Below, piece by piece: positions 4,484 through 7,860 of a DNA stretch of 64,000 bases; positions within the stretch are counted from its first letter, which is position 1, and every line of letters starts with the position of its first letter. Source of the stretch: Thermofilum sp. NZ13 (GTDB lineage: Archaea; Thermoproteota; Thermoprotei; Thermofilales; Thermofilaceae); contig NDWX01000006.1 in the NCBI GenBank assembly GCA_002855745.1, forward strand, positions 1 through 64,000, written 5' to 3'. A model generated the notes under the pieces. That model was not told where the DNA came from. It saw only the letters and a program-made list of their open reading frames with translations, and made no database searches. A program made the position numbers and the translations under genes.

Positions 4484-5593
4484 TTGTCGCCCCTGGACGT
4501 TGTGAAGCTGTTCAGGTCATACTACGCCCGTAACACTGTCCCACCGCCCAGCAGTATAGAGAGGAGGGAGTTCGCCTTCAGCCTCTTCAACTCCCAGGGG
4601 ATGTTCAGGCACATAGCTTTCAGCAACGGGGAGGAGATGAACAGCTTCCTCAGGGAGAAGGTCCCCCAGCACGCGTACTACTCAACCGCCTATTACTCCG
4701 ACCCCGCTGCCCAGGACATGGACGAGAAAGGCTGGCTGGGCGCGGACCTCGTCTTCGACATCGACGTCGACCACATAAACACGCCCTGCAAGGTGCTGCA
4801 CGACACTTGGAGGTGCCGGGACTGCGGGGCGGAAGGGTGGGGTATGGTTGAGAAGTGCCCATCGTGCGGGAGCGAGCGATTAGACAGGCAGACCTGGGTC
4901 TGCGATCAGTGCATAAGTGTGGCCCGGGAGGAGATCCTTAAGCTCGTGGACATACTCGAGGAGGACTTCGGGATCTCTAGAGACGAGATGTACGTCGCCT
5001 TCTCGGGCCACAGAGGCTTCCACCTCCACGTCGAGAACAAGCTGCTGGCGGAGCTCGACCAGGAGGCTAGGCGCGAGCTGGCGGACTACGTCAGGGGGCT
5101 GGGCATTGACCCGGACCTCTACATCGTGAAGGCCAGGAGGGGCTACGTTTACAGGTTCAAGCCCGACGACCCCGGGTGGCGCGGGCGGATCGCGAAGCTT
5201 CTCATGCTCAGGGAGGAAGCCGGTGCCGAGCTCGCACGCGAGGAGCTCAGGAGGCTCATCCTGGAGTGCGTCGCCGAGGCTAGGGCGAACATCGACGAGA
5301 AGGTGACGATGGACGTGAAGCGCCTCATAAGGCTCCCCGGCACGCTTCACGGCAAGACAGGCCTTAGGGTTCTCAAGCTCACAGTGCAGCAGTTGGAGGC
5401 TATGGATGCCAGGAGTGTGCTCGAGAAGGCTGTAGCCCTCCCCGACGAGCCTGTCAGGGTTGAGATGGAGAAGTGGCCTAAGAGGGTGCTGACCTCGGTC
5501 TTCCCCGATGAAGCTGGCGAAAGAACGCTGCCCCTATACCTTGCAGTCTACCTCGCGCTAAACGGTAAAGCCAGGATACTGGGGCCGGCCTAG
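4484..5593 (+). CDS. priS: DNA primase catalytic subunit PriS
   Basis: 369 aa, small subunit of archaeal primase, which synthesises RNA/DNA primers. It starts with TTG directly after the priL stop. The catalytic carboxylates are in DIDVDH (D92, D94). A zinc-binding insert follows, with cysteines in CRDCG, CPSCG and CDQC between about residues 111 and 140. The conserved SGHRGFHLHV motif is near residue 173, and IRLPGTLHGKTGL near 290 is another family signature. It is the last gene of the pcn-priL-priS operon. The DNA downstream is a decayed mobile element that begins within a few bases of the stop. Confidence 0.95.
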   Translation: MSPLDVVKLFRSYYARNTVPPPSSIERREFAFSLFNSQGMFRHIAFSNGEEMNSFLREKVPQHAYYSTAYYSDPAAQDMDEKGWLGADLVFDIDVDHINTPCKVLHDTWRCRDCGAEGWGMVEKCPSCGSERLDRQTWVCDQCISVAREEILKLVDILEEDFGISRDEMYVAFSGHRGFHLHVENKLLAELDQEARRELADYVRGLGIDPDLYIVKARRGYVYRFKPDDPGWRGRIAKLLMLREEAGAELAREELRRLILECVAEARANIDEKVTMDVKRLIRLPGTLHGKTGLRVLKLTVQQLEAMDARSVLEKAVALPDEPVRVEMEKWPKRVLTSVFPDEAGERTLPLYLAVYLALNGKARILGPA

Positions 5594-5813
5594 GCCGCGC
5601 CTGGCACATTTACCACTTCACTTATCCGGGCCCCCTCTTCGGGGTACTCATGGGCTCCGAGCCTTCGGCCTGCTCCGCCAATATACGCCAGCTAGGGGCT
5701 GTGCGGCGGGGCTTGCCTCGGCGCCTCTTTGTCTCTTCGCGCCGCGCGCGGCACCCGGCGGGCGGCCCGTAGGCCGTGCCGGGAACTGGGGCCGAGGGCC
5801 TCACGTCGCTGGG
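5594..5813. other. GC-rich region with hairpins after priS, possible diverged element end
   Basis: No gene is supported. Read on the minus strand it shows short GC hairpins (GGCCGAAGGCTC; CCCCGAAGAGGGG) in the style of the structured repeat copies. It lies at the position expected for the right end of the decayed element whose possible left end is at 6806-6915. The sequence itself does not align convincingly with the three clear copies, so homology is unproven. Confidence 0.3.
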
Positions 5814-6760
5814 CTACTTCGCTGGCTTCGGCGCTCCGTGGACCAGTGCCCTGAAGGTGCGCGGCCAGCTACTCAGCGTCTCAAGGTGTTTCTCAGCATT
5901 GTAAGCCTCTAGGAAGCACTCGTGGCGTTGGCGCAGGTTGCCCAGTCCCAACCGTAGGTTACGTCGCACTTGGTGCATCAATAGTAGCGCTTCCCCAGCT
6001 CAACGCCCTAGGCTCCGCAGACCGGCACCGCCTGCCCGAGACGTTAGTGTCAGGCTCAGAGTACCTCGCTCCCTCGTAGAGAGCTAGGTTCTCCAGCCTC
6101 TCCGCTTTTCCGCTGGGGGCTCCGCTAGCTGCAGGGCACATGAGGGCAACGAGCCTGGAGAGCAGGAGCGAGTTAAGCAGGTTCAGCTGCGCGGGGTCGA
6201 GGGAGACGAGCTCCTCCAAGCCCACCTCCTCCCCGGGCAAGCCTCTCGGCGAGCTCCGCGACCCCCCTCACCTCCTCCTGGGAGGCCTTGCCTGCGCCAA
6301 GCCCCCTGGCGCCGCGCGGCATCACCCGGTATCTCTTGATTTAGCCTGATATCACTTGATATCAAGTGATTTCGCGTGATATCACCACGTGATATCGATT
6401 GATATCTGCCGGTATCGCCTGATATCGGCTGATCTTGCTTGATATCAACCTGTGATACCTCTTGATTTCTTCTGATATCAGGCGAAGCCGCCTGCTCCCG
6501 CGCGAAGTCAGGAGGCGCTGCCTGTCTCCCGGAGCGCCTTAGGTGTAGCTTGACATGGCCCGCGAGGCGCAACCTCTCCAGGGCGCTGGCGATATGCCTT
6601 GTGTTCCTCGTGCCGAATGCCCTGCTGAGAGGCTTGAGCTACCTGTGGTGCCACGGGGCCCTTGCGAGGCCGGTCAGCTCAAGCCACCTGGCGACGCTCT
6701 CTCAGACCTCCCTGTCTACCTCAACCGTCACGGCTGAGCGCGTGCGGGGGTCATAAGCGT
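5814..6760 (-). pseudogene. Composite decayed gene: wHTH-like N-terminus, decapeptide repeats, zinc ribbon
   Basis: Read from about 6760 down to TAG at 5816-5814. Blocks that look coding: DPRTRSAVTVEVDREV (ribbon-helix-helix-like strand and helix), a TGA at 6704-6702, ESVARWLELTGL, a TAG, then TRNTRHIASALERLRLAGHVKLHLRRS (winged-helix-like), then 10-residue repeats such as SGDTGRYQSIS and SDIRLNQEIP. After one frameshift come EEVGLEELVSLDPAQLNLL and SRLVALMCP, then a zinc ribbon (VPVCG, CTKCD) with a TnpB-like WDWATCANA, and in another frame EAYNAEKHLETLSSWP. At least two stops and several frameshifts mark it as dead. A paralogous fragment lies at 37970-38304 and shares the TGA position. Function not recognised; a DNA-binding protein of the mobile element is likely. 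Confidence 0.55.
6327..6482. repeat. 15-unit array of TGATATCnnn with 10-bp period
   Basis: Units (TGATATC or one- to three-base variants) start at 6327, 6337, 6347, 6357, 6367, 6377, 6390, 6400, 6410, 6420, 6430, 6440, 6453, 6463 and 6473. Spacing is 10 bp except for two 13-bp steps placed 63 bp apart, so a 63-bp higher-order unit is possible. Each unit contains the palindrome GATATC or a variant of it. On the minus strand three units make ten codons, giving repeats such as VDIKQDQPIS and SGDTGRYQSIS, and the extra 3 bp keep that frame. It may be coding repeats, iteron-like protein-binding sites on one DNA face, or both. Confidence 0.9.
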
Positions 6761-6805
6761 TTACACATGCTGTGGCTGGTAGGAGCCGAGGGGCGTACAG
6801 GTGTT

Positions 6806-6915
6806 GCTCGAACACCCTCCCGCAATATCCTCTCCAAACCCTCGGGGGCAAGGGAGAGTCCGATCGACACGGGAAGAAACTGGGGAAAAGCTAAAAATGG
6901 TATTGCTGCGCGGTG
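6806..6915 (+). repeat. Dispersed 110-bp element, copy a (candidate mobile-element left end)
   Basis: Aligns by eye with 37554-37662 (minus) at roughly 70% identity. Shared blocks: CTCGARCACC, AACCCTCGGG-like, AGGGARAG, CACGGGAAGAA, GGGAAAAGCTAAAAATGG, and TATTGCTGCG. Here the A-rich block (6891-6899) is also at TATA-box distance from the RNase Z start, so it may serve as that gene's promoter. The decayed mobile-element gene lies to its left on the minus strand, the same relative arrangement as at the other paired loci. Confidence 0.6.
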
Positions 6916-6921
6916 TAGTAA

Positions 6922-7860
6922 ATGATTGCCAGGATAATGTTCTGGGGTGTTAGCAGCACGCGGCCTTTCAAGGGGAGGCTGCCTCCCTGCACCGTGGTAA
7001 AGCTCGACGGGAGAATTGTACTCCTCGACTCTGGAGAAATGTGTCAGGGAGCATTTGAGTACTTCGGGTTAAGCTACAACTCCCCATTGATTATTCTGAT
7101 CTCGCATCTTCACGGCGATCATACATACGGGCTGGTGCCACTTTTGGAGTCATTGCAACTGGCTGGCAGGAAGGAACCGATCGAGATCATAGGACCGCTG
7201 GGCGTAGGTGAGATAATTCCGGCACAGCTTTTGCTGAAGCAGGAATACCCGGTAAGGGTATTGGAGATTTTAGGCGACGAAGGCAGAATCCCGCTGGGCG
7301 GCGAGGAGCGTCTATCGGTTAGGTACATCAGGGCCCCCCACTCATACATATCGTACTCCTATGTGCTAGAAACACGCGAGAGAATACGTTTAGATGGGAG
7401 GAAACTACAGGAAGAAGGCATACCGGGAAAGCTCAGGAGAAGGCTTCTGGACAGGGGACAAATACGCTACAGAGGGAAGGTATACTTCCTTGAGGACTTC
7501 ATTTTGGACAAAATCCCCGGTTTGAAAATCTCATACAGTGGCGATACGCTTCCCAACGCCCGATTTGGAGCAGCAAGCTGGGAAGCAGATGTCATGATAC
7601 ACGAAAGCACATTCCTCCATGCTGACTGGATCGGTAGAGAGAGTATCGCCCACTCAACCTCCCGAGAAGCAGCATACCTGGCGAAGAAAGCTAGAGTCAA
7701 GCTTTTAATCCTCACACACTTCAGCACTCGTTACACCGAACTTGAGCCCCTGCTTGAGGAAGCCAAAGCCGTTTTCCCTCGTGTTGTGTTGGCCGAGAAA
7801 GGCCTGGTAGTGGAGGTCAAAGCTGGGCGACCAAGGGTCATAACTATCATGAGGGCGTAG
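6922..7860 (+). CDS. rnz: Ribonuclease Z (tRNA 3' processing endonuclease)
   Basis: 312 aa metallo-beta-lactamase-fold enzyme that cleaves tRNA precursors at the 3' end to create the CCA-addition site. The zinc motif HLHGDH is at residues 62-67, with further ligands in RAPHSYISYSY, YSGDT and ILTHFSTRY near residues 140, 210 and 270. Length and layout fit tRNase Z short form. ATG 6922 is about 25-30 nt downstream of an A-rich TATA-like box (CTAAAAATGG), implying a nearly leaderless mRNA. That box lies in the right end of a dispersed repeat, so a repeat insertion may have supplied the promoter. Confidence 0.95.
   Translation: MIARIMFWGVSSTRPFKGRLPPCTVVKLDGRIVLLDSGEMCQGAFEYFGLSYNSPLIILISHLHGDHTYGLVPLLESLQLAGRKEPIEIIGPLGVGEIIPAQLLLKQEYPVRVLEILGDEGRIPLGGEERLSVRYIRAPHSYISYSYVLETRERIRLDGRKLQEEGIPGKLRRRLLDRGQIRYRGKVYFLEDFILDKIPGLKISYSGDTLPNARFGAASWEADVMIHESTFLHADWIGRESIAHSTSREAAYLAKKARVKLLILTHFSTRYTELEPLLEEAKAVFPRVVLAEKGLVVEVKAGRPRVITIMRA

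Follow-up and report, generated by a model that had tools for sequence, protein, structure and literature searches.

The array of ten-base units at positions 6327-6480 of the window (the whole 64,000-nucleotide stretch analysed) lies, with high confidence, in a dead gene fragment, and its parent array elsewhere in the same genome is best read as a cis-acting, helically phased protein array, a centromere or an origin, situated inside a reading frame. To this reading we assign a probability of about 0.57. The window genome (G000) is archaeal, is assembled in 33 contigs and is 99% complete. In the mechanism proposed, the window array would be a partial gene copy derived from an integrated archaeal element of conjugative type. 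The living element would carry a stretch of 150-400 bp in which short quasi-palindromic motifs recur with roughly each helical turn; this stretch would lie at or inside a zinc-finger (ZnF) gene and adjoin the genes for an AspA-like winged-helix protein, ParB and an Orc1/Cdc6-like AAA+ protein, with ParA in one relative. Dimers bound along one DNA face would then seed the assembly of a segregation complex, making the array a centromere; assembly of an initiation complex, with the array as an origin, is less likely. In the G000 elements, where the array is inside the ZnF frame, it would also be translated, and the protein would carry a decapeptide repeat after the zinc finger and before the helical domain. 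We infer binding itself, the identity of the binder and the preference of segregation over replication.

The array in the window and its surroundings

By dynamic programming, 15 units with the consensus TGATATCAnn were placed on the minus strand from 6480 down to 6327, the successive steps being 10, 10, 13, 10, 10, 10, 10, 10, 13, 10, 10, 10, 10 and 10 bp. The fifteen units of the first-pass annotation, and its twelve steps of 10 bp and two of 13 bp, were thereby reproduced. Exact GATATC is present in only 8 of the 15 units and the full palindrome TGATATCA in 5 of the 15. The remaining units are degenerate, chiefly in the codon phase that makes TGA an in-frame stop. With up to two mismatches allowed, TGATATCA was found at 11 sites between 6300 and 6500, whereas 300 dinucleotide shuffles yielded 2.2 on average and never more than 7. 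Self-similarity at lags of 10, 20 and 30 was 0.60, 0.55 and 0.51, compared with 0.23 in the background; no other 10-bp periodicity in the 64-kb window was as strong, and the array was also detected by Tandem Repeats Finder. A 129-amino-acid open frame on the minus strand (6183-6572) runs through the array, which encodes a degenerate decapeptide repeat, DIRxxQxISx; its translation includes PDIRRNQEVSQVDIKQDQPISGD.

This residual frame belongs to an incomplete gene. Positions 6135-6566 on the minus strand (about 430 bp) are 87-88% identical to part of an intact open reading frame on contig C17 of the same genome (L009:5666-6355), and cover the last zinc-finger residues (GHVKLHLR), the array and the start of the helical region; an intact ZnF, the C-terminal NPWL motif and the downstream AAA+ gene are all lacking from the frame at 6183-6572. 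The fragment is lodged within a broken insertion sequence (5593-6907) of different gene origin, made up of a winged-helix gene and a TnpB-like gene. On one side lies the C-terminal remnant of the TnpB-like gene (5593-6105, minus strand; Pfam PF07282 on a full paralogue), and on the other the opposite end of the insertion sequence, the 5' part of the winged-helix gene (6567-6907, minus strand), which matches L224:2648-2995 of G151, a genome of the same species where L224 holds an intact copy. Dozens of full or partial copies of this winged-helix and TnpB-like insertion sequence are present in G000 and G151. The earlier suggestion that the array had been coding in a now dead gene is thus borne out by the identity to the C17 gene and by the location inside a TnpB-type wreck.

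Two chromosomal genes on the plus strand flank the wreck, one reading as the small subunit of DNA primase (4484-5593) and the other as a metallo-beta-lactamase-fold protein (6922-7860). They stand about 31 kb apart in G151, indicating that the wreck marks a rearrangement junction between the two genomes of one species. The window copy could be imagined to function still in the chromosome, for instance by working against the element as a decoy or as an incompatibility site, and the copies at C29:90003 and C6:1 do retain the array although their ZnF and AAA+ genes have decayed. Such a role is nevertheless highly improbable for a copy that is embedded in an insertion-sequence wreck marking a rearrangement junction, that has neither a ParB nor a winged-helix element gene beside it, that is missing from G151 and whose core is conserved no better than its flank. 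We regard the window copy as probably inert.

Other copies, the C30 paralogue and the reading frame

The same array was detected at three further sites in G000, C17:5971-6163, C29:90003-90190 and C6:1-122. On C17 it lies within an intact frame of 229 amino acids, whose product is ordered as a zinc ribbon and a C2H2-like finger, the decapeptide repeat DIRxxQxISx, a helical region and the C-terminal LPSFARDNPWLRVLAERG. The stop codon of this gene overlaps the start of a 203-amino-acid AAA+ gene with an Orc1/Cdc6-like lid. A convergent gene for the AspA-like winged-helix protein and a ParB_N gene are located nearby, and a radA paralogue and a gene that reads as a Cas4-like nuclease, for which no NCBIfam family match was obtained, are on the opposite side, so that the C17 module comprises RadA, the putative Cas4-like nuclease, ZnF, AAA+, the winged helix and ParB. 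On C29 and C6 the copies have degenerated: the array is kept, a deletion fuses it to the last part of the AAA+ gene, and the winged-helix and ParB genes follow downstream. This one internal deletion is common to the two degenerate copies (L010:5980-6480 and L011:1-430), indicating that the deletion derivative was itself duplicated.

A syntenic module on contig C30 carries a different 10-bp array at the equivalent place in its ZnF gene, consisting of 17 ten-base units of roughly GNTRAATNYC that encode the repeat SRKIQLNxDE, with a G recurring every tenth base in each of the three codon phases. The proteins of C17 and C30 share 41% identity for ZnF, 74% for AAA+ and 88% for ParB. The period on C30 is exactly 10.0 bp rather than 10.5, and self-similarity there peaks at a lag of 30 bp (0.71), which is what a decapeptide would produce. 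No clear co-variation was found between the type of winged helix and the type of array among C17, C29, C6 and C30. These points weigh against the phased-site reading.

The main rival to the phased-site reading is that each array is a coding minisatellite, grown by slippage from a 10-bp seed in a disordered linker region of the ZnF protein, its AT-rich wobble positions and periodicity being leftovers with no role at the DNA level. Several observations fit such an origin. Both the C17 and C30 arrays are in frame, the length changes between copies are of 3 or 30 bp, and the ZnF protein of another genome, G018, has no repeats. In the stop-codon avoidance test on the window array, all five units in the TGA stop phase are without the T (5/5), although this is not significant (P=0.10). 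Comparison of the four C17-type copies gave no significant difference between core and flank divergence in any of the six pairs. Between C17 and the window, differences were found at 10 of 120 core positions (core8), 8 of 82 flank positions and 10 of 36 spacer positions, the spacers alone being more variable in most copy pairs. Because the core-flank difference is not significant, we do not claim conservation of the core.

Codon usage points in the other direction. GC at third codon positions is 0.88 in the module genes and 0.90 and 0.82 in the ZnF flanks, and falls to 0.41 in the C17 array and 0.22 in that of C30. Each array peptide was recoded 20,000 times with the codon usage of the module. 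The lag-10 similarity of the recoded sequences averaged 0.34 (C17) and 0.30 (C30), and the observed values of 0.57 and 0.48 were never reached; the observed similarity at lags 10 and 20 was reached by 0 of 20,000 recodings for both peptides. Recoded C17 contained GATATC 0.4 times on average, and never the 8 times observed. The DNA of the array is therefore not dictated by the peptide. Recent origin by slippage could be the source of both the codon pattern and the periodicity. Against coding alone, however, two diverged paralogues independently hold the 10-bp period with different sequences and with codons that run against the module bias, and phased arrays are located outside the ZnF frame in two relatives, one of which has the same 10- and 13-bp steps. 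On balance we consider a purely coding origin somewhat unlikely. Two outcomes that the first-pass annotation had named as adverse to a DNA-level role were not encountered: in place of a peptide kept without GATATC, C30 keeps neither and retains the 10-bp period, and in place of unique slippage there are four copies and the C30 paralogue.

Phased arrays in related genomes

Among 60 relatives, the array itself was found in G000 only. Six other genomes in the phylum sample have clear relatives of the AAA+ gene, and in three of them (G004, G011 and G018) a ZnF gene accompanies it. In the other three (G001, G002 and G014), the AAA+, winged-helix and ParB genes form a chromosomal cluster beside the topoisomerase VI genes, in which no ZnF gene and no visible array were found; ParA was recognized by motif in the G002 cluster. 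These clusters (L086, L087 and L088 for G001, G014 and G002, respectively) look like a chromosomal partition cassette.

In G004, 12 sites of the form CGNAWTNCG (10 of them exact) lie between the Cas4-like and ZnF genes as three quartets, each with steps of 10, 13 and 10 bp. The first of these shares sequence with the end of the Cas4-like frame, the second and third lie between genes, and the rest of the 7-kb locus contains no exact site. In G011, 21 such sites (11 exact) occupy about 400 bp upstream of the ZnF gene and are partly covered by a chance open reading frame, with no exact site outside the array in that locus. Their spacings fit a period of 10.56 bp (R 0.93), a fit found in 0 of 2000 random sets. 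The double CGNAWTNCG motif is present at the module loci of G004 and G011 and at only two other places in 101 genomes. Both arrays are outside the ZnF reading frame. G018 has the ZnF module with no array.

Thus three of the four genomes with a ZnF module, and both intact modules of G000, have a phased array at the 5' part of the ZnF gene or close to it. The missing array of G018 and the differences in array sequence from genome to genome count against the phased-site reading. The repeats are clustered at one locus, and their periods range from 10.0 to 10.56 bp. Mixed steps of 10 and 13 bp average near the 10.5-bp helical turn, which may be why they exist. The 3-bp slips, taken earlier as a sign of coding, carry little weight as such, since the largely non-coding G004 array also has 10-13-10 steps. 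The proposal that proteins are bound on one DNA face gains indirect support through the parent element, namely from the C30 array, from wobble bases that ignore codon bias and from the arrays of G004 and G011.

Searches were extended beyond these genomes. Viral contigs contained 59 scattered pairs of TGATATCA, which we did not take as relatives, and no G004-type quartet pattern; no AAA+ relative was found in phage records, plasmid records or viral contigs. The ZnF protein gave no match in genome contigs, and the AAA+ profile found a single convincing record there, an archaeal one whose match is that of G018.

Neighbouring proteins and the choice between segregation, replication and repression

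The AlphaFold model of the winged-helix protein (pLDDT 89) matches AspA of the Sulfolobus plasmid pNOB8 (4rs8) with a target-normalised TM score of 0.80, and the AspA-DNA complex 5k5q is also among the matches; MarR-type proteins match the model too, so the AspA fold is not exclusive. A profile match to TubR is weak (E 0.001). The adjoining gene codes for a ParB protein (Pfam ParB_N 3.7e-9; Spo0J 2.2e-23) with a Noc/Spo0J-like clamp fold and a weak match to pNOB8-like ParB-N. Its C-terminal helices are modelled at low confidence; a ribbon-helix-helix at that end was suggested by a weak Pfam hint only (E 0.007) and is absent from the model. A ParB gene is located nearby in each of the closely examined modules, C17, C30, C29, C6, G004 and G018. 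The G004 element codes in addition for a ParA-like ATPase (weak NCBIfam ParA match, with a GSKGGVGKTT motif); ParA was not found in the examined pieces of the G000 elements, and no ParM was noticed among the module genes read. VirB4/CedB-like and VirB11/TadA-like ATPases, together with further proteins that read as pilins, indicate that the G004 element is an integrated element of conjugative type.

The presence of ParB and the AspA-like protein in the closely examined modules, and of ParA in one element, leads us to favour a centromere over an origin. As an origin, the array would be bound by the ZnF protein, and the Orc1/Cdc6-like AAA+ protein would load a helicase. The lid of the latter (NCBIfam E 1.8e-13; PDB Cdc6 E 3.8e-10) and the overlap of its gene with the ZnF gene agree with such a role, for which the origin of phage lambda is a precedent (PMC3985674). 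We consider it unlikely, however, because the AAA+ protein is only about 200 amino acids long and is without a winged-helix DNA-binding domain, because a DNA-unwinding element was not identified, and because the chromosomal clusters retain AAA+ with the winged helix and ParB in the absence of ZnF and any visible array.

Repression of the ZnF-AAA+ operon, through phased sites bound by the ZnF or the winged-helix protein and with no role in segregation or replication, appears distinctly improbable. Usual archaeal operators are far smaller than 150-400 bp with 12-21 sites; the G000 array sits about 200 bp inside the gene, and a ParB gene is near in all the closely examined modules. On the other hand, the arrays do lie just upstream of the ZnF gene or early within it, and many centromere arrays also act as operators (PMC5016525).

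The preferred reading, a centromere-type array, was compared with known systems. The module resembles the AspA-ParB-ParA system of pNOB8 in having a small AspA-fold winged helix beside a ParB with a Spo0J-like N domain and, in G004, a ParA-like ATPase in the same conjugative-type element (PMC5120986). AspA binds a single 23-bp palindrome, upstream of aspA, and then spreads (PMC5120986), whereas here 12-21 short sites recur every 10-10.5 bp at the ZnF gene. Furthermore, the present ParB is closer to Noc/Spo0J than to pNOB8 ParB-N, the winged-helix and ParB genes do not overlap but are divergently oriented, and AAA+, ZnF, RadA and Cas4-like genes are added. In the type II parC/ParR systems of R1 and pB171, ParR binds direct repeats of 10 or 11 bp (PMC9426499) with the sites on one helical face, as proposed here (PMC9426499, PMC5016525), but neither ParM nor ParR was found among the module genes read; the arrays look like a ParR-type site beside an AspA-type protein. 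The tubC/TubR system likewise combines a winged-helix protein with short direct repeats upstream of an operon (PMC5016525), but no TubZ was noticed here, and the sequence and spacing of the unit differ. In the phage lambda origin, a cis-acting iteron array lies within the protein-coding sequence of the O gene, the DNA being read twice (PMC3985674), as in G000; lambda, however, has four 19-bp iterons and the known initiator O, in contrast to 15-17 ten-base units and a putative ZnF/AAA+ pair.

We suggest tentatively, at less than even odds, that the coding sequence of one of the element's DNA-binding proteins now contains a phased array of centromere or origin type, so that the same 150 bp would dock proteins and encode a decapeptide. 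The complete divergence of the array between the two G000 elements would fit incompatibility groups. If right, this would be a second type of archaeal centromere-like site, with phased short motifs in place of one palindrome, and a clear example of how a cis-acting array of DNA sites can enter a reading frame and shape a protein; four testable array sequences with their neighbouring proteins would be at hand. Segregation of archaeal plasmids and conjugative elements is largely unknown, and the mechanism of AspA-ParBA is listed as an outstanding question (PMC5120986).

Some minor features of the modules were also recorded. At the end of the C17 contig, L009:8864-9274 repeats nearby sequence in inverted orientation, which is probably an artefact of assembly. 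G000 has three RadA paralogues (L009:6403-7377, L050:1752-2720 and L051:3028-4005), two of which are element genes, each overlapping a Cas4-like nuclease gene. The C-terminal motif of the ZnF protein, LPSF(x)3NPWL(x)2L(x)R, is common to otherwise unrelated proteins across the phylum (L009:5666-6355, L051:2113-2511, L054:2675-3085, L056:2335-3096 and L053:2783-3457). Several of its bearers adjoin radA-like or Rad50-like genes, and the tail may be a docking site for a common DNA-repair or replication partner.
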